Part shown: one piece after another, positions 41,518-61,890 of the stretch
How the letters are laid out: the number at the start of each line of letters is the position of its first letter
Numbering within the stretch: position 1 is the first letter of the stretch
DNA from: Betaproteobacteria bacterium
Lineage (GTDB): Bacteria; Pseudomonadota; Gammaproteobacteria; Burkholderiales; Casimicrobiaceae
DNA length: 64,000 nt
Reading direction: 5' to 3'
Assembly (NCBI GenBank): GCA_016861105.1
Contig: BOKS01000005.1
Location: forward strand, 124,001 to 188,000
Notes under the pieces: model-generated
The model's input: the letters and a program-made list of their open reading frames with translations, nothing else
What the model was told of the DNA's origin: nothing
The model's database searches: none
Made by a program: the position numbers and the translations under genes

Positions 41518-42408
41518 TTACGCGGCGCCTCCCTGGCGCGTGCCCTGCAGCGCGGCGATCCGCTGCTCGATCGGCGGGTGCGTCGAGAAGAGCGCCATCA
41601 GCCCCGACTTGTCCGTGATGCCGAGCGTCTTGATGCCCTCCGGCAGCGAGGCCTCCTCGCTCACGCCGCCGAGGCGGCGCAGCGCGTTGATCATCGGGGT
41701 CGGCGTGCCGAGGTAGCCCGCCGCGCCGCGGTCCGCGCGGAATTCGCGCTGGCGCGAGAACCACGCGACGATGATCGACGCGATCAGCCCGAACACGATC
41801 TGGCAGACCATCACGGTGACGAAGTAGCCCGGGCCCGTGCCGCGCTCGGTGCGGAAGACCGCGCGGTCGACGATCGACCCGACGATGCGCGACAGGAACA
41901 CGACGAAGGTGTTCACGACGCCCTGGATCAGCGTCATCGTCACCATGTCGCCGTTGGCGACGTGGGCGACCTCGTGGCCGAGCACCGCCTCGACCTCCTC
42001 CTTGTTCATCGACTGCAGCAGGCCCGTCGACACGGCCACCAGCGCCGAGTTCTTGAAGGCGCCGGTGGCGAATGCGTTGGGCGGTCCCTCGTAGATCGCC
42101 ACCTCGGGCATGCCGATGCCGGCGCGCTCGGCGAGGCGCCGCACGGTCTCGACCAGCCAGGCCTCGACCTGGTCGCGCGGCTGCTCGATGACGTGCGCGC
42201 CGGTCGACCACTTCGCCATGGCCTTGCTCATCAGCAGCGAGATGATCGCGCCCGTGAAGCCGACCACCGCCGAGAAGGCGAGCAGCGGGCCGTAGGCGAT
42301 GCCGGTGGCGTCGTACACCGCCCGGTCGAGGCCGAACAGCCGCAGGACGACGGACAGCACGACCAGCACGGCGATGTTGGTCGCGAGGAACAGGACGATG
42401 CGTTTCAT
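41518..42408 (-). CDS. htpX: Membrane-bound zinc metalloprotease HtpX
   Basis: A 296-residue M48-family inner-membrane protease. N-terminal TM segments ([19 protein letters not shown]), the zinc motif HEVAH in [14 protein letters not shown], further TM helices and a catalytic EFRADR for the third zinc ligand. Degrades misfolded membrane proteins under stress. Start ATG 42408; convergent with the histone/SWIB gene. Confidence 0.97.
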
Positions 42409-42569
42409 GCGGCTGTCTCCGGTGTGCGGTGACGCGAGTCGTGAAGTGGCGGCATCCTCCGGCCGCCGGCGGCGCCCGGGGCCGTCGCGCCACTACGTGG
42501 GGCGGGGACGCACGGGTTTCAATCGGGCCGCGTTCGACATCGCCGGCGACGGCGAGTGCCCGGCCGCGG

Positions 42570-44399
42570 TCAGGGCTGGCGCCCGGACCACGAGTCCTTG
42601 AGCGTCACGGTGCGGTTGTACACCGGCCGGCCGGGCACGTGGTCGACGCGGTCGGCGACGAAGTAGCCGGCGCGCTCGAACTGGTACCTCGCCTCCGGCG
42701 GCGCGAGCGCCAGCGCGGGCTCGACCTGCGCGACGATCACCCGGCGCGAGTCGGGGTTGAGGTCGTCGAGGAAGTCGCGTTCCAGGAGGCCCGCTTCGTC
42801 GTCGTCGTCGCCGGCGACCTTCGCCGCGGCCGCCGCCGGTGCGTCGGGCTCGCCGCGCGTGCCCCAGGGGTTGCGGTCGCCGGGGAATGGCACGCGGAAC
42901 AGGCGGTCGTAGAGGCGCACCTCGGCCGGCACGGCCTCGTCGACGGCCAGCCAGTGGATGTTGCCCTTCACCTTGCGCGCCTCGGCGCCGGGGGTGCCGC
43001 TGCGCGTGCCGGGATCGTAGGTGCAGTGGACGACCGCGACGTTGCCCGCGGCGTCCTTCTCGACGCCGACGCAGCGCACGATGTAGGCATGGCGCAGCCG
43101 CACCTCGGCCCCGGGGGAGAGGCGGAAGTAGCCCTTCGGCGGCACCTCGGCGAAGTCGTCGCGCTCGATCCACAGCTCGCGAGCGAAGCGCAGCCCGCGC
43201 CGGCCGCGTTCCGGCTTCTGCGGGTGGTTCGGCGCGTGGCAGGTCTCCGAGGCGCCTTCCGGATAGTTGTCGATGACGAGCCGGATCGGGTCGAGGACGG
43301 CCACCCGGCGCTCCGCGCGCTCGTTGAGATCGTCGCGCATCGCGTCCTCGAGGACGCTCATGTCGATCCACGCGTCCGACTTCGACACGCCGGTGCGCTC
43401 CGCCATCAGCCGGAAGCCCTCCGGCGTGAACCCGCGACGCCGCGCGCCGACCAGCGTCGGCATCCGCGGATCGTCCCAGCCGTCGACGTGCCCGCCGTCG
43501 ACCAGCTGGATCAGCTTGCGCTTCGACAGGACGACGTACGTGAGCTTGAGGCGCGCGAACTCGATCTGCTGCGGCAGCGGGCGCTCGAGCCTGCCGCCGT
43601 CGGCGAGCCGCGCGATGACCCAGTCGTACAGCGGCCGGTGGTCCTGGAATTCCAGCGTGCAGATCGAGTGCGTGATCCGCTCCAGCGCGTCGGAGATGCA
43701 GTGCGTGTAGTCGTAGAGCGGATACACGCACCACTTGTCGCCCGTGCGGTGGTGCGAGGCGTGGCGGATGCGGTAGATCGCCGGGTCGCGCATGTTCACG
43801 TTCGGGCTCGCCATGTCGATCCGGAGCCGCAGCACGTGCGCGCCGTCGGGAAACTCGCCGGCGCGCATGCGGCGGAACAGGTCGAGGTTCTCCGCCGGCG
43901 TGCGGTCACGGTACGGGCTCGGCCGGCCGGGCTCGGTCAGCGTGCCCCGCGTCGCGCGCATCTCGTCGGCCGACTGGCTGTCGACGTAGGCGAGGCCCTG
44001 CCCGATGAACCACTCGGCGAACTCGTAGAGCCGGTCGTAGTAGTCGGACGCGTGGTAGAGGTGCTCTCCCCAGTCGTAGCCGAGCCAGCGCACCGACTCC
44101 TCGATCGACGCCTCGTACTCGACGTCCTCCTTGAGCGGGTTGGTGTCGTCGAACCGCAGGTGGCAGCGGCCGCCGTTCTCGCGCGCGATCCCGAAGTTCA
44201 GGATGACCGACTTCGCGTGGCCGTAGTGCAGGTAACCGTTCGGCTCGGGCGGGAACCGCGTGACGACGCGGCCGCCGTACTTGCCGGTCCGGGCGTCGTC
44301 CGCCACGATGGCGCGGATGAAGTTCGGCGCGGGGACGGCTTCCAGGCGCTCGCGCGCCGCGGCCGGCGCCCTCACGCCGTCTTGCGGTGCAACAGCCAT
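42570..44399 (-). CDS. glnS: Glutaminyl-tRNA synthetase
   Basis: A 609-residue class I synthetase. The HIGH-type motif is PPEPNGYLHYGHAKS and the KMSKS-type motif VLSKRK; the C-terminal anticodon-binding beta-barrels follow. It charges tRNA-Gln. The C-terminal insertion APAAAAAKVAGDDDDEAGLL (about 525-545) is a low-complexity acidic stretch not seen in E. coli. Start ATG 44399. The 161 bases to htpX carry no gene. Confidence 0.97.
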   Translation of the reverse strand: MAVAPQDGVRAPAAARERLEAVPAPNFIRAIVADDARTGKYGGRVVTRFPPEPNGYLHYGHAKSVILNFGIARENGGRCHLRFDDTNPLKEDVEYEASIEESVRWLGYDWGEHLYHASDYYDRLYEFAEWFIGQGLAYVDSQSADEMRATRGTLTEPGRPSPYRDRTPAENLDLFRRMRAGEFPDGAHVLRLRIDMASPNVNMRDPAIYRIRHASHHRTGDKWCVYPLYDYTHCISDALERITHSICTLEFQDHRPLYDWVIARLADGGRLERPLPQQIEFARLKLTYVVLSKRKLIQLVDGGHVDGWDDPRMPTLVGARRRGFTPEGFRLMAERTGVSKSDAWIDMSVLEDAMRDDLNERAERRVAVLDPIRLVIDNYPEGASETCHAPNHPQKPERGRRGLRFARELWIERDDFAEVPPKGYFRLSPGAEVRLRHAYIVRCVGVEKDAAGNVAVVHCTYDPGTRSGTPGAEARKVKGNIHWLAVDEAVPAEVRLYDRLFRVPFPGDRNPWGTRGEPDAPAAAAAKVAGDDDDEAGLLERDFLDDLNPDSRRVIVAQVEPALALAPPEARYQFERAGYFVADRVDHVPGRPVYNRTVTLKDSWSGRQP

Positions 44400-44907
44400 G
44401 CGGATTTGTTCATGAACAATCGAGGTCGTCGGTCGATTCTACGCGGGCCGCCGCAGCGCGTCATGCGCCCGGGGCGGCCGCCCCCGAGGGAACCCCGCGG
44501 AAAGCCGCGCCCCACCTCGCTTCCCGGGCGGCTGTCGGTCGGCGGCGGACACGGTTGTCCACAAATCCTGTGGATAGGAATGTGCATATCTTGTACAGTC
44601 CGCGTCCAACCCCATGAACCGGCAGTGAAAAGGCTGCGATGACCAAAATCGCGCCGGACAAAAGCAACGCCCGATCAGGCGTTTAAACGTGCTCGCCGCC
44701 GCATCCCGCGCGCCGGCGGCGGCGCCTTCGTGACAGCGCCATGACAGGCACCCGCCGTCAAGCCCCCGGATCGTTGTCCATGACAGACCTGTACCAGCGG
44801 CAATGCCGGCGTCGGCCGGCCGGGCCCGCCGGCCGGCCGCGCTCGCCCGTCGGGACGTCGTGAGCTCCCGCCCCGGCGATGCACCGCAACAACCCGAGGT
44901 GCCGGGA
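44400..44907. other. 508-base divergent region between glnS and xseA
   Basis: No convincing gene. TTGTCCACA (44555-44563) and TGTGGATAG (44569-44577) form an inverted pair of DnaA-box-like nine-mers. A minus-strand terminator-like AACGCC-N6-GGCGTT followed by GCTTTT lies at 44683-44658. A 15-codon frame (ATG 44639) and a 68-codon minus-strand frame are present but unsupported. Less GC-rich than its surroundings around 44575-44610. Confidence 0.6.
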
Positions 44908-46227
44908 ATGCCGCCGCCCGTGCTCCCGGTCGGGTTGCTCGTCTCCTCCGCACGCCTGCTCCTCGAGCGGCACCTCGGCGTCGTCTGGGTCGGCGGCGAA
45001 GTCTCGAACCTCTTCCGCGCCGCTTCGGGCCACGTCTACTTCACGCTCAAGGACGCCGCCGCGCAGGTGAAGTGCACGCTGTGGCGCAGCAAGGCGCAGC
45101 TCGTGCCGTTCACGCTGCGCGACGGCATGGCGGTGGAGGTGCGCGCGCTCGCCTCGATGTACGAGGCGCGCGGCGAGTTCCAGCTCAGCGTCGACACGAT
45201 CCGACACGCCGGCGTGGGCGCGCTCTACGAGCGCTTCCTCGCGCTCAAGGCGAAGCTGGAGGCGGCGGGCTGGCTCGCGCCCGAGCGCAAGCGGCCGCTG
45301 CCTGCGTTTCCGCGGCGCGTCGGCGTCGTCACGTCCCCGCGCGCGGCGGCGCTGCGCGACGTGCTCGCCACGTTCGCGCGGCGCTGGCCGCAGCTAAGCG
45401 TGGTCGTCTACCCGTGCGCCGTCCAGGGCGACGGCGCGGCCGCGGAGATCGCGCAGGCCATCCGCACGGCCAACGCGCGGCGCGAGGTGGACGTGCTGAT
45501 CGTCTGCCGCGGCGGTGGCTCGATCGAGGACCTCTGGGCGTTCAACGAGGAGGTCGTGGCGCGCGCCATCGTCGAGTCGGCGTTGCCGGTGGTCGCCGGC
45601 GTGGGGCACGAAACCGACGTCACGATCTGCGACTTCGCCGCCGACGCGCGGGCGCCCACGCCGACCGGCGCCGCGGCGCTCGTGACGCCCGACTGTGCGG
45701 AGCTCCGCCACCGCGCCGGCCAGGTCGCGCGCCGCCTGCAGCACGCGCTCGCCTACCGCCTCGCGCACGCGACGCAGCGCGTCGATCACGCGTCGCGACG
45801 CCTCGTCCATCCCGCCGCGCGCCTCGCCGAGCAGCGTGCGCGCCGTGCCGACCTCGCGGGGCGGCTGGCGCGCGCCGCGGCGCGGGTGTGCGCGGAGCGG
45901 GCGCGCGCGCTGGACGGCGCCCGCCTGCGCTTCACGCGCGAGCTGCGCTCGCCGCTGCCCGGCGCCGAGCGCGTCGCGGTGGCGTGCGCGGACCTGGTTC
46001 GCGCCGGCGCCCGCGCCGTGGACGCCCGCGCGCAGCGCGTCGCCGCGCTCGCGCAGGGGCTCGCGCACCTCGATCCGGAGGCGGTGCTCGCGCGCGGCTA
46101 CGCGATCGTCGCGGACGCGCAGGGCCGCGTCGTCGTGGATGCCGCCCAGGTCGACACCGGCGACGAGGTCTCGATCGCGCTCGCCCGCGGCCGGGTACGC
46201 GCGGCCATCACCTCCCGCCAGAATTAG
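44908..46227 (+). CDS. xseA: Exodeoxyribonuclease VII large subunit
   Basis: 439 residues. An N-terminal OB fold ([25 protein letters not shown]) is followed by the nuclease core with [31 protein letters not shown] and [17 protein letters not shown]. Long C-terminal helices follow. With XseB it degrades single-stranded DNA. ATG 44908 has GAGG nine bases ahead and gives the family's usual N-terminal length; GTG 44860 and ATG 44803 are alternatives. The stop codon lies inside the first copy of a family-2 repeat, so the repeat array touches the gene end. Confidence 0.94.
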
Positions 46228-46410
46228 GGTCAGACTCGCATTTCCGCACAACGCAGAACGAGGGTCAGACTCGAATTTCGTCGCTGGGTTACCGGCGCGC
46301 GCGAGCCTTGCGATCCGGAAATTCGAGTCTGACCCTCGTTTCCCGTGGCCGGCTTATTGGCGTGCGCGCGCGTTGCGATCCCGAAATTCGAGTCTGACCC
46401 TCGTTTCCCC
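46221..46410. repeat. GGGTCAGACTCG repeat array, family 2, copy B
   Basis: Four copies: two direct (46221-46248 and 46256-46280) and two inverted (46318-46343 and 46382-46408). The inverted pair also share flanking sequence (TTGCGATCC-GAAATTCGAG), giving a 64-base unit. The first copy reads TTAGGGTCAG instead of ACGAGGGTCAG and its TAG is the xseA stop. Same unit and same head-to-head arrangement as the 20-kb array. Confidence 0.9.
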
Positions 46411-46437
46411 CCGGGACGCGGGATCGGGCGCTGCGGC

Positions 46438-47601
46438 TCAGGCCTCGTCCGGATCGGGATCGTCGATGGCGCCGGCGGCACGCAGCGTCGCGATCACGTC
46501 CGCCGGCGCCTGCGCCGGGATCCTCGGCGTGGCGCAGACGACGTCCGCGTTCTGCGCACGGTGGCGCAGCGCGTGGTCCATCAGCACGATGGCGAGCATC
46601 GCCTCGGCGATCGGCGTGGCGCGGATGCCCACGCAGGGATCGTGGCGCCCGTGCGTGTTGACGACGACCGCACGCCCGGCCTTGTCGATCGAATGGCGGT
46701 CGAGGCGGATCGACGAGGTCGGCTTGACGGCGATCGACACGACGATGTCCTGCCCGGTCGAGATGCCGCCGAGGATGCCGCCGGCCTGGTTGCCGACGAA
46801 GCCCTGCGGCGTCATCTCGTCGGAGTGCTCGGTGCCCTTCTGCGCCACCGCCGCGAAGCCCGCGCCGATCTCGACGCCCTTGACGGCGTTGATGCCCATC
46901 ATCGCGCAGGCGATGTCGGCGTCGAGCTTGTCGTAGACCGGCTCGCCCCAGCCGACCGGCACGCCGCTCGCGACCACGGCGATGCGCGCGCCGCACGAGT
47001 CGCCCGACTTGCGCAGCGCGTCCATGAACGCCTCGAGGCGCGGCACGACGCTCGCGTTGGCTACGAAGAACGGGTTGGCGTCGACGTGCTCGAAGCCCTC
47101 GAAAGGCACGACGTTGGGCCCGAGCTGCGTCAGGTGCCCGCGGATCGCGACGCCGTGGCGCTCGCGCAGCCACTTCCTCGCGATCGCCCCGGCCGCCACC
47201 CGGACGGCGGTCTCGCGCGCGGACTGCCGGCCGCCGCCGCGGTAGTCGCGCTCCCCGTACTTCTGCCAGTACGTGTAGTCGGCGTGCCCGGGGCGGAACG
47301 TGTCGGCGATGCGCGCGTAGTCCCGGCTGCGCTGATCCTCGTTGCGGATCAGCAGCGCGATCGGCGTCCCCGTGGTGCGGCCCTCGAAGACGCCGGAGAG
47401 GATCTCGACGCTGTCGGATTCGCGCCGCTGCGTGACGTGGCGCGACGTGCCGGGCTTGCGCCGGTCGAGCTCGCGCTGGATGTCGGCCTGCGCGAGGGCG
47501 AGCCCCGGCGGGCAGCCGTCGACGACGCAGCCGATCGCCGGACCGTGCGACTCCCCGAACGAGGTGACGCAGAAGACCCTGCCGAGCGTGTTGCCGGACA
47601 T
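46438..47601 (-). CDS. aroC: Chorismate synthase
   Basis: 387 residues. FGESHG near residue 15, [18 protein letters not shown] and [15 protein letters not shown] are the three family signatures. Converts EPSP to chorismate with reduced FMN, the last shikimate step. Start ATG 47601. The gene ends 28 bases from the repeat array that follows xseA, with which it converges. Confidence 0.98.
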
Positions 47602-47713
47602 CGGAGCGTGCGCGCGCCGCGCGAGGTCGATGGGAAAAAAAGTCTAGCACGTGCCTCGCATCGCTCCTGCGCCGCGGCCTGCGACGCGCGGCGCGGCGTG
47701 GGAGAATCCCGGC

Positions 47714-48481
47714 ATGGACACGGCGGTGGCCATCGACGTCCGTCTCGCACGCGCGCTGCGCGAGGCGCGTCACGTCGCGGTGCTGACCGGGGCGGGGATC
47801 TCCGCCGAGTCGGGCGTTCCGACGTTCCGCGACGCGCTGACCGGCTTGTGGGCGACGTTCGATCCGCGCGAGCTGGCGACGCCGGCGGGGTTCCGGCGCA
47901 ATCCCAAGCTCGTCTGGGACTGGTATGCGGCGCGCCGCGAGCAGTTGCGCGAGGTCGCGCCCAACCCCGGGCACGACGCGCTCGCGCGCCTCGAGGCGCG
48001 CGTGCCCCGCTTCCTCCTCGCGACGCAGAACGTCGACGGGCTGCACGCGCGCGCCGGCAGCCGCCGGCTGGTCGAGCTGCACGGGAACATCGCGCGCGTG
48101 CGCTGCTCGCGCGAGCGCGGACGCATCGTCGCGACGTGGGACGAGCCGGCCGACGAGCCGCCGCGCTGCCCGTCGTGCGGCGCCTTCTTGCGTCCCGACG
48201 TCGTGTGGTTCGAGGAGGACCTGCCGGTCGACGCGCTGGTGGCGGCCGAGGACGCGGCGCGCGCCTGCGACCTGATGCTGGTCGTCGGCACGTCGGGCGA
48301 GGTCTATCCCGCGGCCGCGCTGCCCCAGTACGCCGCCGACGCGGGCGCGTGCGTCGTGGAAGTCAACCCCGCGCCCACGCCGCTGTCGCGGATCGCCGAC
48401 CACGCGCTGCGCGCGCCCGCCGGCGTGGCGCTCCCGGCGCTCGTGCGGGCGGCGTGGGGCGAGGACGTCATGCCGGCGTAG
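47714..48481 (+). CDS. Sirtuin, NAD-dependent protein deacylase
   Basis: 255 residues with TGAGISAESGVPTFRD for NAD binding, TQNVDGLH and catalytic His123 in ELHGN. Removes acyl groups from lysines. Only three cysteines remain in the zinc region (Cys131, Cys152, Cys155); the usual second Cys of the first pair is replaced by Glu or Arg (RCSRERG), so zinc binding may be altered or absent. Start ATG 47714. The 3' end overlaps the convergent ATP-grasp gene by 14 bases. Confidence 0.93.
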   Translation: MDTAVAIDVRLARALREARHVAVLTGAGISAESGVPTFRDALTGLWATFDPRELATPAGFRRNPKLVWDWYAARREQLREVAPNPGHDALARLEARVPRFLLATQNVDGLHARAGSRRLVELHGNIARVRCSRERGRIVATWDEPADEPPRCPSCGAFLRPDVVWFEEDLPVDALVAAEDAARACDLMLVVGTSGEVYPAAALPQYAADAGACVVEVNPAPTPLSRIADHALRAPAGVALPALVRAAWGEDVMPA

Positions 48482-52514: not shown

Positions 52515-54395
52515 TCATCGCCGCGGTCCCCGAAGCGCGAGGATCGTCGCGCGCAGCGCGCCCGCGTCCAGCCGCTGCGGCGCGATCGCCTCGCCGACAA
52601 CCAGCGCGATGCGCGAGAACACGCCGCGCCAGCGCCGCATGGCGCGTCCGTTGTGCGAGCGCGAGAAGAAGCTGCCCCACAGGCCCGCGAGCGCCATCGG
52701 GATCACCGGCACCGGCGTCTCGCGCACGATGCGCTCGAGCCCGGGGCGAAACGGCCCCATCTCGCCGGTGTCCGTCAGCCGGCCCTCGGGGAAGATGCCG
52801 ACGACCTCGCCGTCGCGCAGCGCCCGGGCGACGTCGGCGAAAGCCCTCTCCTTGAGCGCGGCGTCCTCGCGCCCGGGCGCGATGGGGATCGTGCGCATCG
52901 TGCGGAACAGCAAGCCGAGCAGCGGCGTCGCGAAGATGCGGTGGTCCATGACGAAGCGGACCGGCCGGCGCATGCACGCGCTGATCACGACCGCATCGAC
53001 GTAGGACACGTGGTTGCACGCGATCACGCACGCGCCGTCGTCGGGGACGCGCTCGAGCCCGCGCGCGTCGACGCGGTACACCGAGTGCACCAGCGCCCAC
53101 GCGAGGAAGCGCATCAGGAACTCGGGCACGAGGCGGTAGATGAACAGCGCCACCGCGGCGTTCATCAGGCCGGTCGCCAGGAACAGGTCGACGATCGACA
53201 GCCCGGCCTTCAGCAGCGCGATCGCGACGCCGGCCGAGGCGACCATGAAGATCGCGTTGAGGATGTTGTTGGCCGCGATGATCCGCGAGCGGTGCGACGG
53301 CCGCGAGCGCTGCTGGATCAGCGCGTACAGCGGGACGATGTAGAAGCCGCCGAACACGCCGATCATCACGAGGTCGAACGCGACGCGCCAGTGCGCGCCG
53401 ACCGCGAGGAACGTCCGCACGCCGGCGACGCCGTCGGCACGCAGCCCGTGGGCCGCGAGCCAGAGGTCCACGGCGAACAGCGTCAGGCCGATCGACCCGA
53501 GCGGGACCAGGCCGATCTCCACCTTGCGGCCCGACAGCCGCTCGCAGAGCAGCGACCCGGCGCCGATGCCGATCGAGAACAGCGCGAGCAGCAGCGTCAC
53601 CACGGTCGCGTCGCCGCCGAGGAAGTCGCGCGCGAAGCCCGGGAACTGCGCGAGGAACAGCGCGCCGTAGAACCAGAACCACGAGATCCCCAGCATCGAC
53701 AGCCAGACGACGCGGTTGCCCTGCGCGAGGACCAGGTTGCGCGCCGTCTCGGTGACCGGGTTCCAGTTGATCGCAAGCCCCGGGTCGACGGCGGGCGTGC
53801 GGGGGACGCGCAGGCTCGCGGCCCAGCCGGCGACCGCCAGCGCGACGCCGGTCGCGCCGGCCAGCAGGGGTCCGTGCGGCTCGACCGCGACCGTGAGGCC
53901 GCCGACGATCGTGCCGAGCAGGATCGCGACGAAGGTGCCCATCTCCACGAGCCCGTTGCCGCCGACCAGTTCCTCGTTCGACAGCTGCTGCGGCAGGATC
54001 GCGTACTTCACGGGGCCGAACACGGCCGACTGCACGCCCATCAGGCCGAGCGCGACGAACAGCAGCGCGACGCTGCCCTGCCAGAACCCGGCGAGCGCGA
54101 CGAGCATGATGCCGATCTCGGCGGCCTTGGTGGCGCGGATCAGCCGCGACTTCTCGAGCTTGTCCGCGACCTGGCCCGCCGTGGCGGACAGCAGCATGAA
54201 CGGCGCGATGAACAATGCGCCGGCGAGGTTGACCAGCGTGTCGGGGTCCATGCCGCCCGCCGCGGCGCCGAACGCGACGAAGATCACCAGCGCGTTCTTG
54301 AGGACGTTGTCGTTGGCCGCGCCGGCGAACTGCGTCCAGAAGAACGGCGCGAAGCGCCGCTCCCGCAGCAGGTCGAACTGGTTGCGCTCGTGCAT
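52515..54395 (-). CDS. MFS lysophospholipid flippase-acyltransferase fusion (LplT-PlsC type)
   Basis: A 626-residue fusion. Residues 1 to about 420 are a 12-helix MFS transporter like LplT, with FAGAANDNVLKNALVIF and VFGPVKYAILPQ. Residues 430-626 form a PlsC-type acyltransferase, with NHVSYVDAVV (NHxxxxD) and FPEGRLTDTGEMG. It would flip lysophospholipids inward and reacylate them; in enterobacteria the related Aas acyltransferase is a separate neighbour of LplT. Start ATG 54395. Divergent from the HTH gene. Confidence 0.92.
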   Translation of the reverse strand: MHERNQFDLLRERRFAPFFWTQFAGAANDNVLKNALVIFVAFGAAAGGMDPDTLVNLAGALFIAPFMLLSATAGQVADKLEKSRLIRATKAAEIGIMLVALAGFWQGSVALLFVALGLMGVQSAVFGPVKYAILPQQLSNEELVGGNGLVEMGTFVAILLGTIVGGLTVAVEPHGPLLAGATGVALAVAGWAASLRVPRTPAVDPGLAINWNPVTETARNLVLAQGNRVVWLSMLGISWFWFYGALFLAQFPGFARDFLGGDATVVTLLLALFSIGIGAGSLLCERLSGRKVEIGLVPLGSIGLTLFAVDLWLAAHGLRADGVAGVRTFLAVGAHWRVAFDLVMIGVFGGFYIVPLYALIQQRSRPSHRSRIIAANNILNAIFMVASAGVAIALLKAGLSIVDLFLATGLMNAAVALFIYRLVPEFLMRFLAWALVHSVYRVDARGLERVPDDGACVIACNHVSYVDAVVISACMRRPVRFVMDHRIFATPLLGLLFRTMRTIPIAPGREDAALKERAFADVARALRDGEVVGIFPEGRLTDTGEMGPFRPGLERIVRETPVPVIPMALAGLWGSFFSRSHNGRAMRRWRGVFSRIALVVGEAIAPQRLDAGALRATILALRGPRR

Positions 54396-57668: not shown

Positions 57669-57701
57669 AAAAAGAAAGCCCGCCGGGAGGAGGTGGCGGG
57701 C
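57669..57701 (-). terminator. Rho-independent terminator of the small sigma-54 transcript
   Basis: On the minus strand GCCCGCC-N10-GGCGGGC is followed by TTTCTTTTT. It ends the transcription unit that begins at about 57992. Confidence 0.88.
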
Positions 57702-57780
57702 AAGGGGGATGAAGAGGCGACGCGCAGGGAGGAGGGCTGCGCGCCGCCGGACCCGGCTGGCGCCGGATCGTGAAAGCGGG

Positions 57781-57942
57781 TCAGACGATGCTGCGCGCCG
57801 CGCTCACGCGCTCGGCGAGCTCCGCGAGCGCCTGCTGCTGGCGGCGCGCCGCCTCGTCGTCGCGGCGATCGGCGTCCGCGCGCTCGTCGATCTCCCGTCC
57901 GGGCATCGAGTACCGGGTGAGCTCGTTCGCGAAGGAGTCCAT
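57781..57942 (-). CDS. Small 53-residue charged protein under sigma-54/GlrR-type control
   Basis: ATG 57942 with GAGG six bases ahead gives MDSFANELTRYSMPGREIDE, then an Arg/Asp/Glu/Gln/Ala-rich helix (ADRRDDEAARRQQQALAEL) to the stop at 57781. No signal peptide, membrane segment or cysteine. Not a family I recognise. Its promoter matches the sigma-54 consensus, two GlrR-type boxes lie upstream and a terminator follows 80 bases after the stop, so it appears to be the only gene of its unit. The transcript might instead act as a regulatory RNA; the ORF could then be secondary. Confidence 0.6.
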   Translation of the reverse strand: MDSFANELTRYSMPGREIDERADADRRDDEAARRQQQALAELAERVSAARSIV

Positions 57943-58002
57943 GATCGCCTCACAATCATCGTCGGGACGACGGGTGGTCGTCGTTGCACACGCATCCTTA
58001 CA

Positions 58003-58019
58003 TGCAACGGGCGTGCCAG
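58003..58019 (-). promoter_or_regulatory. Sigma-54 promoter, perfect -24/-12
   Basis: Minus strand CTGGCACGCCCGTTGCA. TGGCACG (58018-58012), four bases, TTGCA (58007-58003), an exact match to TGGCACG-N4-TTGCW. Predicted start near 57992, giving a leader of about 50 bases to ATG 57942. It is the only such match I found, though the window was not scanned exhaustively. Confidence 0.85.
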
Positions 58020-58127
58020 CTCCGGCGCCGACCGCGTGCCGGCCGATGCGAAGCGCGCTGCCGGGGCACGAGCGGCCCGAAAGGAGGCAGTGCGTTGACG
58101 CAGCGCAGCGTGGGCGTCGCGCCGGAT

Positions 58128-58145
58128 GTCGCAATGCAGCGACAC
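58128..58145. promoter_or_regulatory. GlrR-type operator box 1 (TGTC-N10-GACA)
   Basis: TGTC-GCAATGCAGC-GACA, an exact match to the palindrome reported for enterobacterial GlrR. Centre about 144 bases upstream of the predicted start, the usual position of a sigma-54 enhancer. Confidence 0.75.
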
Positions 58146-58192
58146 CCGTGGACGCCTTCGCGTCAACCTCCTGTTCGCGCTCGCTTTTCGCT

Positions 58193-58210
58193 GTCGCACG
58201 CGGGCGACAG
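58193..58210. promoter_or_regulatory. GlrR-type operator box 2 (TGTC-N10-GACA)
   Basis: TGTC-GCACGCGGGC-GACA, an exact match, with its centre about 209 bases upstream of the predicted start and 65 bases from box 1, near six helical turns. Two matching boxes upstream of one sigma-54 promoter are unlikely by chance. Confidence 0.75.
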
Positions 58211-58249: not shown

Positions 58250-59602
58250 TCAGCCCTTGCCCTCCTTGAACATCGACGGCTCGAGCTTGTGGCGTTGCAG
58301 CAGCTTGTAGAACTCCGTGCGGTTGCGCTTGGCCATCTGCGCGGCCTGCGTCACGTTGCCGCCGGTGATCTTGAGCAGCCGCACCAGGTAGTCGCGCTCG
58401 AAGGACTTGCGCGCTTCCTCGAAGGGCACGAGCGCCGCGGCGTCCTCGCGCAGCGCGTTCTGGACCACCGAGGCGGGGATCACGGCCGTCGTCGTGAGCG
58501 CCACCGCCTGCTCGAGCAGGTTGAGGAGCTGGCGCACGTTGCCCGGCCAGGGTGCGGCGATCAGCAGCGCCATCGCGTCGGGCGCGAGCGTGGGCAACGG
58601 CTTGCGGTAGCGCTCGGCCAGCTTGCGCAGGAAGTGCGTCGCGAGCACCGGGATGTCCTCGCGCCGCTCGGCCAGCGGCGGCAGGCGCAGCGACACGACG
58701 TTCAGGCGGTAGTAGAGGTCCTCGCGGAACAGGCTGGCGGCGCGTTGCGCCTCGAGATCGCGGTGCGTGGCGGAGATGATCCGCACGTCGACCGGGACCG
58801 ACTGGGTGGATCCGACAGGCCGGACTTCACCTTCCTGCAGCACGCGCAGGAGTTTCACCTGCAACGGCAGGGGCATGTCGCCGATCTCGTCGAGGAAGAG
58901 CGTGCCCTTGTCGGCGGTCTGGAACAGGCCCTTGTGCGCCTGGACGGCGCCGGTGAACGCGCCGCGCGCGTGTCCGAACAGCTCCGACTCGAGGAGCTCG
59001 CCGGGGATCGCCCCGCAGTTCACCGCCACGAACGGCAGCTCCGCGCGCCGGCTCGCGCGGTGGATCGCCCGCGCCAGCAGCTCCTTGCCGGTACCCGACT
59101 CGCCGTAGACGAGCACGGCCGCGTCGGAGTCGGCGACCAGCCGCGCCTGGCGCAGCAGGTCCTCCATCTTCGGGCTGCGCGTGACGATGCCTGCGCGCCA
59201 CTCGGACGACGCGGTCGCCGCCTCGCCGTCGTCGCCGGAGAGCTTGAGCGCCGCGGCCACCTTCTGCAGCAGCTCCTGGCTGTCGAAGGGCTTGGTCAGG
59301 AACCCGAAGACGCCCCGCTGCGTGGCGGCCACGGCGTCGGGGATCGTGCCGTGCGCGGTCAGGATGATGACGGGCAGCGTCGGATGCTGGCGGTGGATCG
59401 CCTCGAAGAGCTGCAGGCCGTCGATGCCGGGCATCCGCAGGTCCGTGACCACGGCAGCCGGGCGGGCCACGGCGAGGGCCGCGAGCGCGGTCTCGCCGCT
59501 GTCGGCGGTGCGCACCCGGTAGCCGGCCGACGTGAGCCGCAGGCTGATGAGCCGCAGCAGGTCGGGATCGTCGTCGACGAGCAGGACGTCGCTGGCGTGC
59601 AT
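58250..59602 (-). CDS. glrR: Sigma-54-dependent response regulator GlrR (QseF-like)
   Basis: 450 residues. Receiver domain with phospho-acceptor Asp54 in VVTDLRMPG. AAA+ domain with Walker A GESGTGKE, the sigma-54-contact loop GAFTGA, Walker B GTLFLDEIGDMP, and a C-terminal Fis-type HTH (NVTQAAQMAKRNRTEFYKLL). Activates sigma-54 promoters. It follows glrK and a lipoprotein gene in the order typical of the Glr/Qse system. Start ATG 59602; the lipoprotein gene ends seven bases away. The GlrR-type boxes lie immediately downstream of the gene. Confidence 0.95.
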   Translation of the reverse strand: MHASDVLLVDDDPDLLRLISLRLTSAGYRVRTADSGETALAALAVARPAAVVTDLRMPGIDGLQLFEAIHRQHPTLPVIILTAHGTIPDAVAATQRGVFGFLTKPFDSQELLQKVAAALKLSGDDGEAATASSEWRAGIVTRSPKMEDLLRQARLVADSDAAVLVYGESGTGKELLARAIHRASRRAELPFVAVNCGAIPGELLESELFGHARGAFTGAVQAHKGLFQTADKGTLFLDEIGDMPLPLQVKLLRVLQEGEVRPVGSTQSVPVDVRIISATHRDLEAQRAASLFREDLYYRLNVVSLRLPPLAERREDIPVLATHFLRKLAERYRKPLPTLAPDAMALLIAAPWPGNVRQLLNLLEQAVALTTTAVIPASVVQNALREDAAALVPFEEARKSFERDYLVRLLKITGGNVTQAAQMAKRNRTEFYKLLQRHKLEPSMFKEGKG

Positions 59603-59608
59603 GGCGGC

Positions 59609-60415
59609 TCAGTTCCCCCCGCCCGAGCCGGCACCGCCGCCGCCGCCGCTGCGCAGGCGGTCGCGCATCAGGCTGCGCTCCATGGCGCGCAGCGCCTCGA
59701 GCTTCTGGATCGCCGCCTCGCTGCGCGCCTGCTCCTCGCGAACGGCCCGGACGCGCTCGGCCACCTGCACCGACAGCACCGTCGCGAGCTGCTTCAGGCC
59801 CGTCGAGCCGGGGTTCGCCTTGCCGACCGTCTCGAGGAGCGCCAGCGCGCGCTGGTCGTCGGACGGCCCCTGCCGCGTCAGCGTGTGGAGCACCGCCACG
59901 CGGATGCGCGTCGTGTCGGCGCGCGTGCGGTTCATCGCCTGCGTCTGCGCGGCGAGTTCGCGGCGCAGGTCGTCGGCGGCCAGCCCCGCGTAGCGCTGCA
60001 GGTCGGCGAGCAGCGCGGCGAGCTCGCGATCCTCGGGCGTGGACTCCTGCACGACCACCACCTGCGGTGGCGCGGGCTCGGGCGGCGGGACGGATGCGAC
60101 CTGCGGCGTGGGAATCGCGGGCGCTGCGGCCGGCGGCAGCGGCAGGGGATCGGGGACGAGCGGCGCCTGCGCGATCGCGACGGGGGCGGCGGGGCCGGCC
60201 GCGGACGGATCCGCGGCGACCGGCTCGATCGGCGGCCACTCCACCAGCGGCGCCTGCGGCGGCGGCGGCGGCGGCGGCACCGGCGCCGCGGGGGCCCCGG
60301 CCGGTTCCGGGATCGACGGCGCCGCGGCGACGACCTCCGGGGCGGGCGGCGCGGCCGCGCAGCCGGCGACGACGGCGCACAGCGCCAGCGCCGCCAGCGT
60401 GTGTCCCCCGCTCAC
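59609..60415 (-). CDS. Proline-rich lipoprotein of the GlrK-GlrR operon (QseG position)
   Basis: 268 residues. A lipoprotein signal (LALCAVVAGC, lipobox VAGC) followed by a long Pro/Ala-rich linker (residues about 35-125) and a C-terminal helical domain with coiled-coil features (VAERVRAVREEQARSEAAIQKL). Sits between glrK and glrR, the place of the outer-membrane lipoprotein QseG in enterobacteria. It is not clearly the same family, so homology is unproven. The start is GTG 60415, overlapping the glrK stop as GTGA. Confidence 0.8.
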   Translation of the reverse strand: MSGGHTLAALALCAVVAGCAAAPPAPEVVAAAPSIPEPAGAPAAPVPPPPPPPQAPLVEWPPIEPVAADPSAAGPAAPVAIAQAPLVPDPLPLPPAAAPAIPTPQVASVPPPEPAPPQVVVVQESTPEDRELAALLADLQRYAGLAADDLRRELAAQTQAMNRTRADTTRIRVAVLHTLTRQGPSDDQRALALLETVGKANPGSTGLKQLATVLSVQVAERVRAVREEQARSEAAIQKLEALRAMERSLMRDRLRSGGGGGAGSGGGN

Positions 60416-61890
60416 GACGGATGCCCCACGCTGGCGGCCCCCGCCGCGGTCGGCGCGTCGAGCGGCGCCCCCTGCGGCAGCGACAGGCGGAAGCAGGCGC
60501 CCCGCTGCCCGTCGGACCGGTCGTGGACGGCGATGCGGCCGCCGTGCGAGTTCGCGTACTCGCGCGCGATCGCGAGCCCGAGCCCCGACCCCTTGACCCG
60601 GCCGCCGGGCGGCGCCTTGCCCTGGAAGAACGAGTCGAAGATGCGCTCGCGCTCGTCGGCATCGACGCCCGGGCCGTTGTCGCTCACCTCGATGTGCGCC
60701 TGCCCGCCCTCCTGCCAGGCGCGGATGTCGATGCGGCCCGCGCGCGGCGCGTACTTGATCGCGTTGCTGACGAGGTTGTCGACGATCGTGCGCAGGCGGT
60801 CGGCCTCGCCGACGACCAGCGCGGGCTCGAGCCGCGTGTCGATCGTGATGCCCCGCGCCAGCGCCGCGAGCTTGTGCTCGCGCACCACGCGCCGCGCGAT
60901 GTCGCCCAGCATCACCGGCCCCAGCGTGGCCGGCTCGAACGCCCGCGTCTGGTGGTACTTGAGCAGGTCCTCGATCAGCTTCTGCAGCGACAGCGTGTTC
61001 TCGCGGACGATGCGCACGATGTCGCGCTGCTCGCGCGTGAGCTGGCCGCCGACCTCGTCGCGCAGCAGCTCGGCGCCCTCGCGCACGGCGGTCAGCGGCG
61101 TCTTGAGCTCGTGCGAGACGTGGCGCAGGAACCTGTTCTGCTGCTGCTCGAGCTCGGCGAGCCGCACGCGCAGCCACTCGAGGCGCTGGCCGAGGTAGCG
61201 CAGGTCCTGCGGCCCGTTCACCTCGATCGCCTGCGAGAAGTCGGCGCTGCCCATCTGCCGGATCGCCTGGTCGAGCTGGCGGATCGGCCGCGCGATCAGC
61301 ACGGCGAACACGATCGCGAGCGCCAGCGCGATCGCCGCGGTGGCCAGCGCGAGCCAGAACCACTTCTCGCGGCCCTCGGCCGCGGTGTCCTGAAGCCGCT
61401 CGATCGCCTCCTGCGTGAGCGCGCTGGACGCGGTGAGCATCGTCTGCGCGTCGTCGGCGAGCCGGCCGTAGCCGTCGGCGAGCTCGATCGGCAGGCTCGC
61501 GCTCCTGCGCGGCGCCGTGAGAAGCTTGTGCAGCGCGTCCTCGCGCTGGCCGAGGCGCTTGAGCGCCTCGCGGTACGCGCCCTCCAGCGGAATCTGCGAC
61601 AGCTGGCGCACGCTGGCCTGGAAGTCCTGCCTGAGGCGGTTGTAGTCGTCGACCAGCGCCTGGTCCTCGAGGATCAGGTACTGGCGCACGACGCGCTCGA
61701 GCGTCGTCGTCTGCTCGAAGAGCTGGCGCGAGGTGCGCGCGGCCTGCGCCGTCTGCAGCACCTCGTCCCGGCTCTGCGACACGAGCCGGTCCAGCGACAG
61801 CGTGAGCTCGGCGAGCGCGTAGAGCAGCGGCAGGCTCACCAGCAGGAAGCCGAGCAGGATGAACTTGAGGAAGGACCGGGGGTAGTACAC
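60412..61890 (-). CDS. glrK: Sensor histidine kinase GlrK (QseE-like)
   Basis: 492 residues. N-terminal TM helix (FLKFILLGFLLVSLPLLYALA), periplasmic helical sensor (30-175), TM2 (FWLALATAAIALALAIVFAVLIA), HAMP linker, dimerisation helix with His260 in RHVSHELKTP, and an ATPase domain with DNLVSNAIKYA, DNGPGV and GSGLGLAIA. Phosphorylates GlrR. The start is GTG 61890. It diverges from folA across only 68 bases, with overlapping -10 elements. Confidence 0.95.
   Translation of the reverse strand: MYYPRSFLKFILLGFLLVSLPLLYALAELTLSLDRLVSQSRDEVLQTAQAARTSRQLFEQTTTLERVVRQYLILEDQALVDDYNRLRQDFQASVRQLSQIPLEGAYREALKRLGQREDALHKLLTAPRRSASLPIELADGYGRLADDAQTMLTASSALTQEAIERLQDTAAEGREKWFWLALATAAIALALAIVFAVLIARPIRQLDQAIRQMGSADFSQAIEVNGPQDLRYLGQRLEWLRVRLAELEQQQNRFLRHVSHELKTPLTAVREGAELLRDEVGGQLTREQRDIVRIVRENTLSLQKLIEDLLKYHQTRAFEPATLGPVMLGDIARRVVREHKLAALARGITIDTRLEPALVVGEADRLRTIVDNLVSNAIKYAPRAGRIDIRAWQEGGQAHIEVSDNGPGVDADERERIFDSFFQGKAPPGGRVKGSGLGLAIAREYANSHGGRIAVHDRSDGQRGACFRLSLPQGAPLDAPTAAGAASVGHPS

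Follow-up and report, generated by a model that had tools for sequence, protein, structure and literature searches.

This locus raises the question of what the response regulator GlrR controls in a betaproteobacterium. Enterobacterial GlrR acts through the small RNA (sRNA) GlmY and also through rpoE. In E. coli, glmY is activated by QseF/GlrR together with IHF and sigma-54, and GlmY serves as a RapZ-sequestering RNA (PMC6075780). For betaproteobacteria, no GlrR target was found in the literature searched. A preliminary description of the locus had proposed that a small protein, or else an unrelated sRNA, encoded beside the regulator is under GlrR control here. The comparison of sequences presented below supports this proposal, and the "or" looks like "and", because the open reading frame (ORF) is under codon-level selection and a CU-rich RNA element is kept in the basal genus g6 without the ORF. 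We propose, with a probability of roughly two in three, a GlrR/IHF/sigma-54-controlled transcript with two outputs: a small protein and, from its 3' part, a CU-rich regulatory RNA. At the sequence level, enhancer, promoter, ORF and RNA element are each conserved, and so is their staying together. The preliminary description knew of no account of this gene, and none was found in the accessible literature, most subscription papers being outside its scope.

Features of the locus

The window is the whole stretch of DNA that was analysed, 64,000 nucleotides of contig BOKS01000005.1 (positions 124,001 to 188,000) from a Betaproteobacteria bacterium of the family Casimicrobiaceae. The features of the unit and of its neighbouring genes are listed in Table 1.

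Table 1. Features of the candidate GlrR output unit and neighbouring genes, in window positions.
Feature	Position	Strand	Remark
GlrR box 1 (upstream box), TGTCGCCCGCGTGCGACA, TGTC-N10-GACA	58192-58209	-	exact on direct reading
IHF-like site between the GlrR boxes	58164-58176	-	degenerate copy, 3/9 mismatches; most relatives better
GlrR box 2, TGTCGCTGCATTGCGACA, TGTC-N10-GACA	58127-58144	-	exact; start 126 nt ahead of the -24 element
Sigma-54 promoter (-24/-12), TGGCACGCCCGTTGCA, TGGCACG-CCCG-TTGCA	58003-58018	-	exact on direct reading
ORF of 53 codons for a small, acidic (pI 4.8), family-specific protein	57781-57942	-	SD-like GAGG in front
3'UTR hairpin, 12 pairs, loop CCCUCCUCC (57736-57728)	57716-57748	-	predicted fold
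Unpaired CCCCCUU just ahead of the terminator, conserved	57702-57708	-	
Intrinsic terminator, 7-pair stem (57701-57695/57684-57678)	57669-57701	-	T tract to 57669
Terminator loop, ACCUCCUCCC, 10 nt	57694-57685	-	motif kept across Casimicrobiaceae
glrR, sigma-54-dependent response regulator	58250-59602	-	
Probable glrG/qseG-like lipoprotein	59609-60418	-	position and lipobox-like LCAVVAGC; name inferred from gene order
glrK, sensor histidine kinase	60412-61890	-	named by gene order with glrR

Direct reading confirmed the sigma-54 promoter and the stem and T tract of the terminator where the preliminary description had placed them. Both boxes are exact as well, and only their positions had been given one base too high. 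The ORF and its Shine-Dalgarno (SD)-like GAGG also stood, but an SD-like stretch precedes the ORF in just 12 of 24 orthologues when a short motif list is used. The terminator is absent from the list of a simple scanner because its loop exceeds the scanner limit of 8 nt. In the coordinates of the own genome, the boxes are located at C5:182192-182209 and C5:182127-182144. The gene directly next to them is glrR, as had been stated: GlrR is the best NCBIfam family for the regulator (637 bits, below the cut-off of 763; next family 433), and RNRTEFYKLL in the C-terminal segment is common to E. coli GlrR, the recognition segment thus being conserved. No Pfam match was obtained for the glrG/qseG-like candidate (stretch submitted: 60039-60596), and for glrK no NCBIfam model was above its cut-off among the best 25 models listed. 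Hfq is encoded in the own genome. Elsewhere in the window, an Rfam Bcj11 match at 53619-53740 on the minus strand (49.5 bits; gathering 49) lies within a long ORF (52515-54395) and is probably a chance match.

Conservation of boxes, promoter and IHF-like site

In the own genome of 4.49 Mb, 42 TGTC-N10-GACA boxes were found versus 14 for the reversed control pattern. The promoter pattern TGGCAY-N6-TGCW by itself is no evidence, because its 25 sites are outnumbered by the 52 of its reversed control. A box followed by a promoter within 500 nt occurs at two places only, this unit (gaps of 108 and 173 nt) and a place on contig C13 (146 nt); the latter was considered as a second GlrR target and rejected, since its box falls inside an ORF and is taken as chance. 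Among 64 Casimicrobiaceae genomes, the combined pattern was matched 26 times, in 25 genomes, and its reversed control never; by coordinates, 21 of the 26 are at this unit and 5 are elsewhere.

A GlrR search had matches in 61 of 61 genomes, many of these with paralogues only. The preliminary description had made its reading depend on boxes and promoter being conserved near glrR in relatives, and a sigma-54 promoter with at least one exact box is present downstream of glrR in 27 of 32 Casimicrobiaceae glrR loci. The five exceptions are L008, where the contig end is reached with two boxes still visible, L025, where the unit is displaced about 5 kb further on (read as L062), and three loci of genus g2. 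Two exact boxes are found in 14 of the 27 loci, with a spacing of 65 nt in 13 and of 67 nt in L020. The distance from the start of the last box to the -24 element is 114-139 nt (these 14 loci and two loci with that box alone), and from the upstream box, where it stands alone (11 loci), it is 177-201 nt. Seven further ORF loci (L062-L068) have a box upstream in six cases and a promoter-like site in six, one of which reads TGGTACG.

The IHF-like site is found 15 nt past the upstream box, where 27 loci average 1.63 mismatches in 9 positions (the upstream box being inferred from spacing in L006 and L031) versus means of 5.2-7.4 at 34 other offsets; the offset of +15 had been noticed before it was tested. 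L020 and L031 have no IHF fit at this offset (6 mismatches).

For comparison, the E. coli glmY region holds three boxes in a 14-kb stretch, with 0.18 expected; two boxes are 63 nt apart, and the last box starts 107 nt from the -24 element. The preliminary description had already noted that enterobacterial glmY is activated via sigma-54 and such boxes. The unit is like E. coli glmY (PMC6075780) in its TGT-N12-ACA boxes about 65 nt apart, its IHF(-like) site, its sigma-54 promoter and its place beside a glrK-qseG-glrR operon. It is unlike glmY in being downstream of glrR, in having an ORF and in giving no Rfam GlmY match. The boxes, -24/-12 elements and IHF-like site of a GlrR/sigma-54 output promoter of the glmY type are present, the IHF copy of the window being degenerate. 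By these counts, the conservation of boxes and promoter at the locus is not chance, and control of the unit by GlrR and sigma-54 is very highly probable.

Some Casimicrobiaceae genomes have a second GlrR-like regulator with 58-61% identity (L042/L043/L044; G024, G030, G007). In two of these, a boxless TGGCACG-type promoter is found just downstream, followed by an ORF that is PAS-like by eye.

The RNA element in the 3'UTR

Downstream of the ORF, the unpaired CCCCCUU leads into the terminator, whose loop is CU-rich. The 3'UTR of the window is predicted to form three hairpins, of which the second and third carry CCUCCUCC loops; the anti-SD motif CCUCC is in the terminator loop and, in the window, in the loop of the second hairpin. 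When 23 3'UTRs were folded, the CU-rich terminator loop was unpaired in 20 (not free in L007, L011 and L022), and a second CCUCC loop was found in the window and L002 only.

The CU-rich terminator is present in 35 of the 36 loci having the stretch, 34 found by one pattern and L045 by another, and the length of the loop varies among loci. CCUCC is in 33 and UCCUCC in 32 of the 34 pattern-matched terminators, counts made with patterns that themselves demand YUCC in the loop. A total of 41 loci had been given to the pattern. Its non-matches are L008 and L025, where the stretch is outside the locus, L028-L030, which belong to g2, L045, the variant caught by the other pattern, and L020, which has promoter and ORF and in which the CU-rich terminator was not found. 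Searched with a separate pattern for the element, 16 of 37 genomes, all of the own genus, gave a single hit each, and the control gave 1. In the g1-type set the terminator stem is nearly invariant, and a covariation score as high is obtained in 30 of 500 shuffles.

These loops lead us to lean slightly towards an action of the 3' element in trans by anti-SD pairing, an estimate that was lowered a little because the loop counts use patterns already demanding YUCC. As an RNA target, glmS was tried and is not supported: duplexes of the window 3' RNA with glmS start regions from six Casimicrobiaceae genomes (a seventh gave no glmS start) had energies of -25.8 to -34.6 kcal/mol, no better than a background with mean -29.8 and sd 6.8 taken from 68 window ORFs, many of them spurious. 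Separately, three exact GlrR-type boxes were observed in 6.1 kb around glmS (44732-46564; G000:C12 ~42305-48406), above genome density, and no TGGCAY-N6-TGCW site was found on contig C12, which carries glmS.

Relocated copies and copies without the ORF

Behind glrR, the three g2 loci read lack box, promoter, ORF motif and CU-rich terminator alike; a weak -24-like match within the glrR end of L029 was regarded as chance and left uncounted. Diverged copies of the ORF in g2 were located away from glrR by profiles. All 14 such loci read have TGGCACG-N5-CGC about 45 nt ahead of the start codon, with CGC replacing TGC at -12, and in 12 of them an exact box lies 103-178 nt ahead of the promoter. The stop codon is followed by a hairpin whose loop is invariant from UUUCCUCCCCCGG onward in 12 aligned sequences; the invariant CU-rich motif sits in this separate hairpin, and the terminator loop is plain. 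In the stems of both hairpins, 6 pairs are changed on both sides versus 2.8 in shuffles, and 13 cells versus 3.7 (0 of 500 shuffles). Four of the six pairs belong to the plain terminator and two, both from L060/L061, to the CU-rich hairpin. The enhancer, the sigma-54-like promoter, the ORF and the CU-rich loop have thus remained together in g2.

In g6, the ORF profile matches none of 11 genomes, and box, promoter and CU-rich terminator are kept with the ORF absent in five of five loci read. A GlrR tree, with three g6 and three g2 rows and g7 left out, has g6 as sister to the other Casimicrobiaceae rows with a support of 93/97, just under the mark of 95. The ancestral GlrR output may have been a non-coding anti-SD RNA as in g6, inside which the small protein arose later. 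We hold this order of events to be tentative and rather doubtful, and the data are explained equally well if the small g6 genomes have lost the ORF. If it were true, RNA and protein from one sigma-54 transcript would now act in the same response.

These two groups bear on the alternative that the transcript is a plain mRNA for a GlrR-controlled small protein, whose CU-rich loops serve termination, stability or Hfq binding and have no targets in trans. A terminator loop requires no fixed sequence, yet the CU-rich loop is kept in nearly all loci despite its varying length, g2 keeps its invariant motif in another hairpin with a plain terminator loop, and g6 retains the element without any ORF. 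We therefore regard the alternative as unlikely, while noting that the selection on the ORF is clear, that the conserved element is mostly a terminator and that the glmS test gave nothing. The loop might also act in cis, its CCUC pairing with the GAGG before the ORF, as would be possible in the window and some relatives, and limiting translation with no role in trans. This is quite improbable, since half of the orthologues show no SD-like stretch as a partner, the loop occurs in g6 in the absence of the ORF, and both loops are free in the fold predicted for the window transcript.

The ORF and its predicted protein

The protein output of the proposed two-output transcript is represented by 24 glrR-linked orthologues of 48-57 codons, which have the ends MDxFxPEFxxYWL and ALEELAERVxAARSIV with a free linker between. 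ORFs were chosen by the C-terminal motif, and the start of L010 was reset by hand. Over these orthologues, pS is 0.57 and pN 0.39, with pS higher in 267 of 276 pairs. By region, pS/pN is 0.66/0.34 in the first 14 columns, 0.57/0.57 in the linker and 0.52/0.25 in the last 18 columns; on this measure, the ends are constrained and the linker is free of constraint. For the g2 copies, which are outside the members of that profile, pS is 0.43 and pN 0.20, with pS higher in 91 of 91 pairs, and reading frame and length are maintained over 24 plus 14 loci. By substitution pattern the ORF is under codon-level selection, and its translation is highly probable. That it is untranslated and the transcript a non-coding GlrR-dependent RNA, a reading with which its absence from g6 and the poorly conserved SD would agree, is very improbable in view of these pairwise values and the preserved frame and length.

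The ORF profile matched 44 of 64 Casimicrobiaceae genomes (24 members, 8 other non-g2 genomes and 12 of g2), one genome having a second, weak match, and a wider protein profile, A2, matched 10 of 399 genomes of the order, all Casimicrobiaceae. No Pfam or NCBIfam family fits the protein, DUF1127 was matched by none of 16 members and, in another scan, by none of three proteins, and the best match of a PDB profile search had an E of 0.24. The structure prediction (mean pLDDT 71.7, pTM 0.35, helices 3-12 and 14-52) is of too low confidence for interpretation. A CcaF1-like RNA-binding role is disfavoured because the orthologues are all acidic (24 of 24, pI 4.1-5.0).

Comparison with known RNAs

The unit in part resembles the alphaproteobacterial ar14/cuckoo RNAs, which have CCUCCUCCC in hairpin loops, and CcsR1-4/CcaF1 of the CIN1 locus, in that its putative RNA would come from the 3'UTR of a small-protein gene (PMC10253847, PMC8625941, PMC3927594, PMC10746234). 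Two ar14-type loops are present in the window, and most relatives have one CCUCC loop. The unit is unlike ar14/CcsR in its betaproteobacterial host and its sigma-54/GlrR-type promoter, versus the RpoHI/RpoHII promoter given in these sources, and unlike the CIN1 locus in its acidic protein without DUF1127 match and its Rfam scores under gathering. On the window stretch, Rfam ar14 (RF02344) scored 30.9 bits (E 7.4e-4), below the gathering score of 58.8, and CcsR1 scored 18.8 bits. Among the 25 other unit loci that were scanned, just one gave an ar14 match, a weak one (L023, 22.5 bits, E 4.9), so the unit resembles cuckoo RNAs in kind and not in family. An anti-hemB match in L023 (22.3 bits, E 0.77) is likewise weak.

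A further likeness is to the RF02278 RNAs (ncS27/bdhR1) and Bordetella S17, in which CU-rich unpaired stretches complementary to ribosome-binding sites are followed by a terminator; the S17 precursor holds a putative 32-residue ORF (PMC5688073, PMC11722255). The CU-rich stretches of S17 repress a target by pairing close to its ribosome-binding site, which compensatory mutations have shown in the case of one target, whereas the reports on ncS27 and ar14 RNAs give such pairing as a prediction (PMC11722255, PMC5688073, PMC10746234). S17S is produced by RNase E cleavage. The unit differs in giving no RF02278 match, either at its own locus or at the other unit loci scanned, and in its promoter, that of S17 being described there as sigma-A. 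Rfam GlmY likewise had no match in the window stretch or the other unit loci scanned, and unlike GlmY, a RapZ-sequestering RNA, the unit has CU-rich loops. An RF02278-like CU-rich double hairpin was observed elsewhere in the own genome (L069, G000:C10:38697-38764; 34.5 bits, gathering 50), and because of this weak locus the genome may hold two CU-rich RNAs.

Proposed mechanism and significance

In the proposed mechanism, phosphorylated GlrR would bind both boxes, the intervening DNA would be bent by IHF, and RNA polymerase with sigma-54 would initiate at about 57992, giving a transcript of about 325 nt. Translation would yield the 53-residue acidic protein. The 3'UTR, whole or after cleavage, would be a regulatory RNA that uses its CCUCC loops and the unpaired CCCCCUU for pairing with G-rich SD regions of other mRNAs, thereby lowering their translation. 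RNase E cleavage as for S17S may hold here, and by analogy with the known RNAs the element is probably a translational repressor of several mRNAs.

Each part is of a known kind; within the literature searched, what is new is the way they are combined, together with the promoter type and the protein. The IHF-like site, the anti-SD loops and the relocated g2 copies are additions to what the preliminary description had listed. The locus provides a defined candidate GlrR output with an unusually readable enhancer, and suggests that GlrR is again tied to an RNA, this time unrelated to GlmY and paired with an orphan small protein. It makes testable the questions of GlrR targets outside enterobacteria, of the joint action of the protein and RNA of one transcript, and of small-protein birth in sRNA genes.

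Loci outside the family

An RNA model, R3, matched 14 of 399 genomes of the order, 6 of them Casimicrobiaceae (an earlier model, R1, whose sequence set was misaligned, was discarded). Six g2 genomes listed were missed because the g2 terminator loop is plain. A spread of the RNA element beyond Casimicrobiaceae was rejected: in the other 8 genomes (9 matches), no box and no glrR was found in the flanks read, and the matches look like ordinary terminators. One of them, L094, nevertheless has CCUCC in its loop and an R3 E of 4.3e-6. Because it outscores the two g6 copies (1.0e-5), membership of g6 rests on position and not on score.

At 10 glrR loci of other families (L032-L041), a promoter-like site is found downstream in 7, with a box upstream of that site too in 5. 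The gene after it encodes a glycine-zipper protein in L034 and, just under the Pfam cut-off, in L037, and a BON-domain protein in L041, where no box is upstream; the downstream proteins of L032 and L033, both partial sequences, had no Pfam match. The neighbour output of GlrR thus seems to be swapped between families. Right after glrR in L039, a box and a TGGCACC-N4-TTGCA promoter are followed within about 90 nt by a strong terminator, with no ORF of note, and a short GlrR-dependent RNA in another family is possible. A metagenome-assembled genome titled Bordetella parapertussis (L084) carries the Casimicrobiaceae unit, and its title is probably a mislabel.
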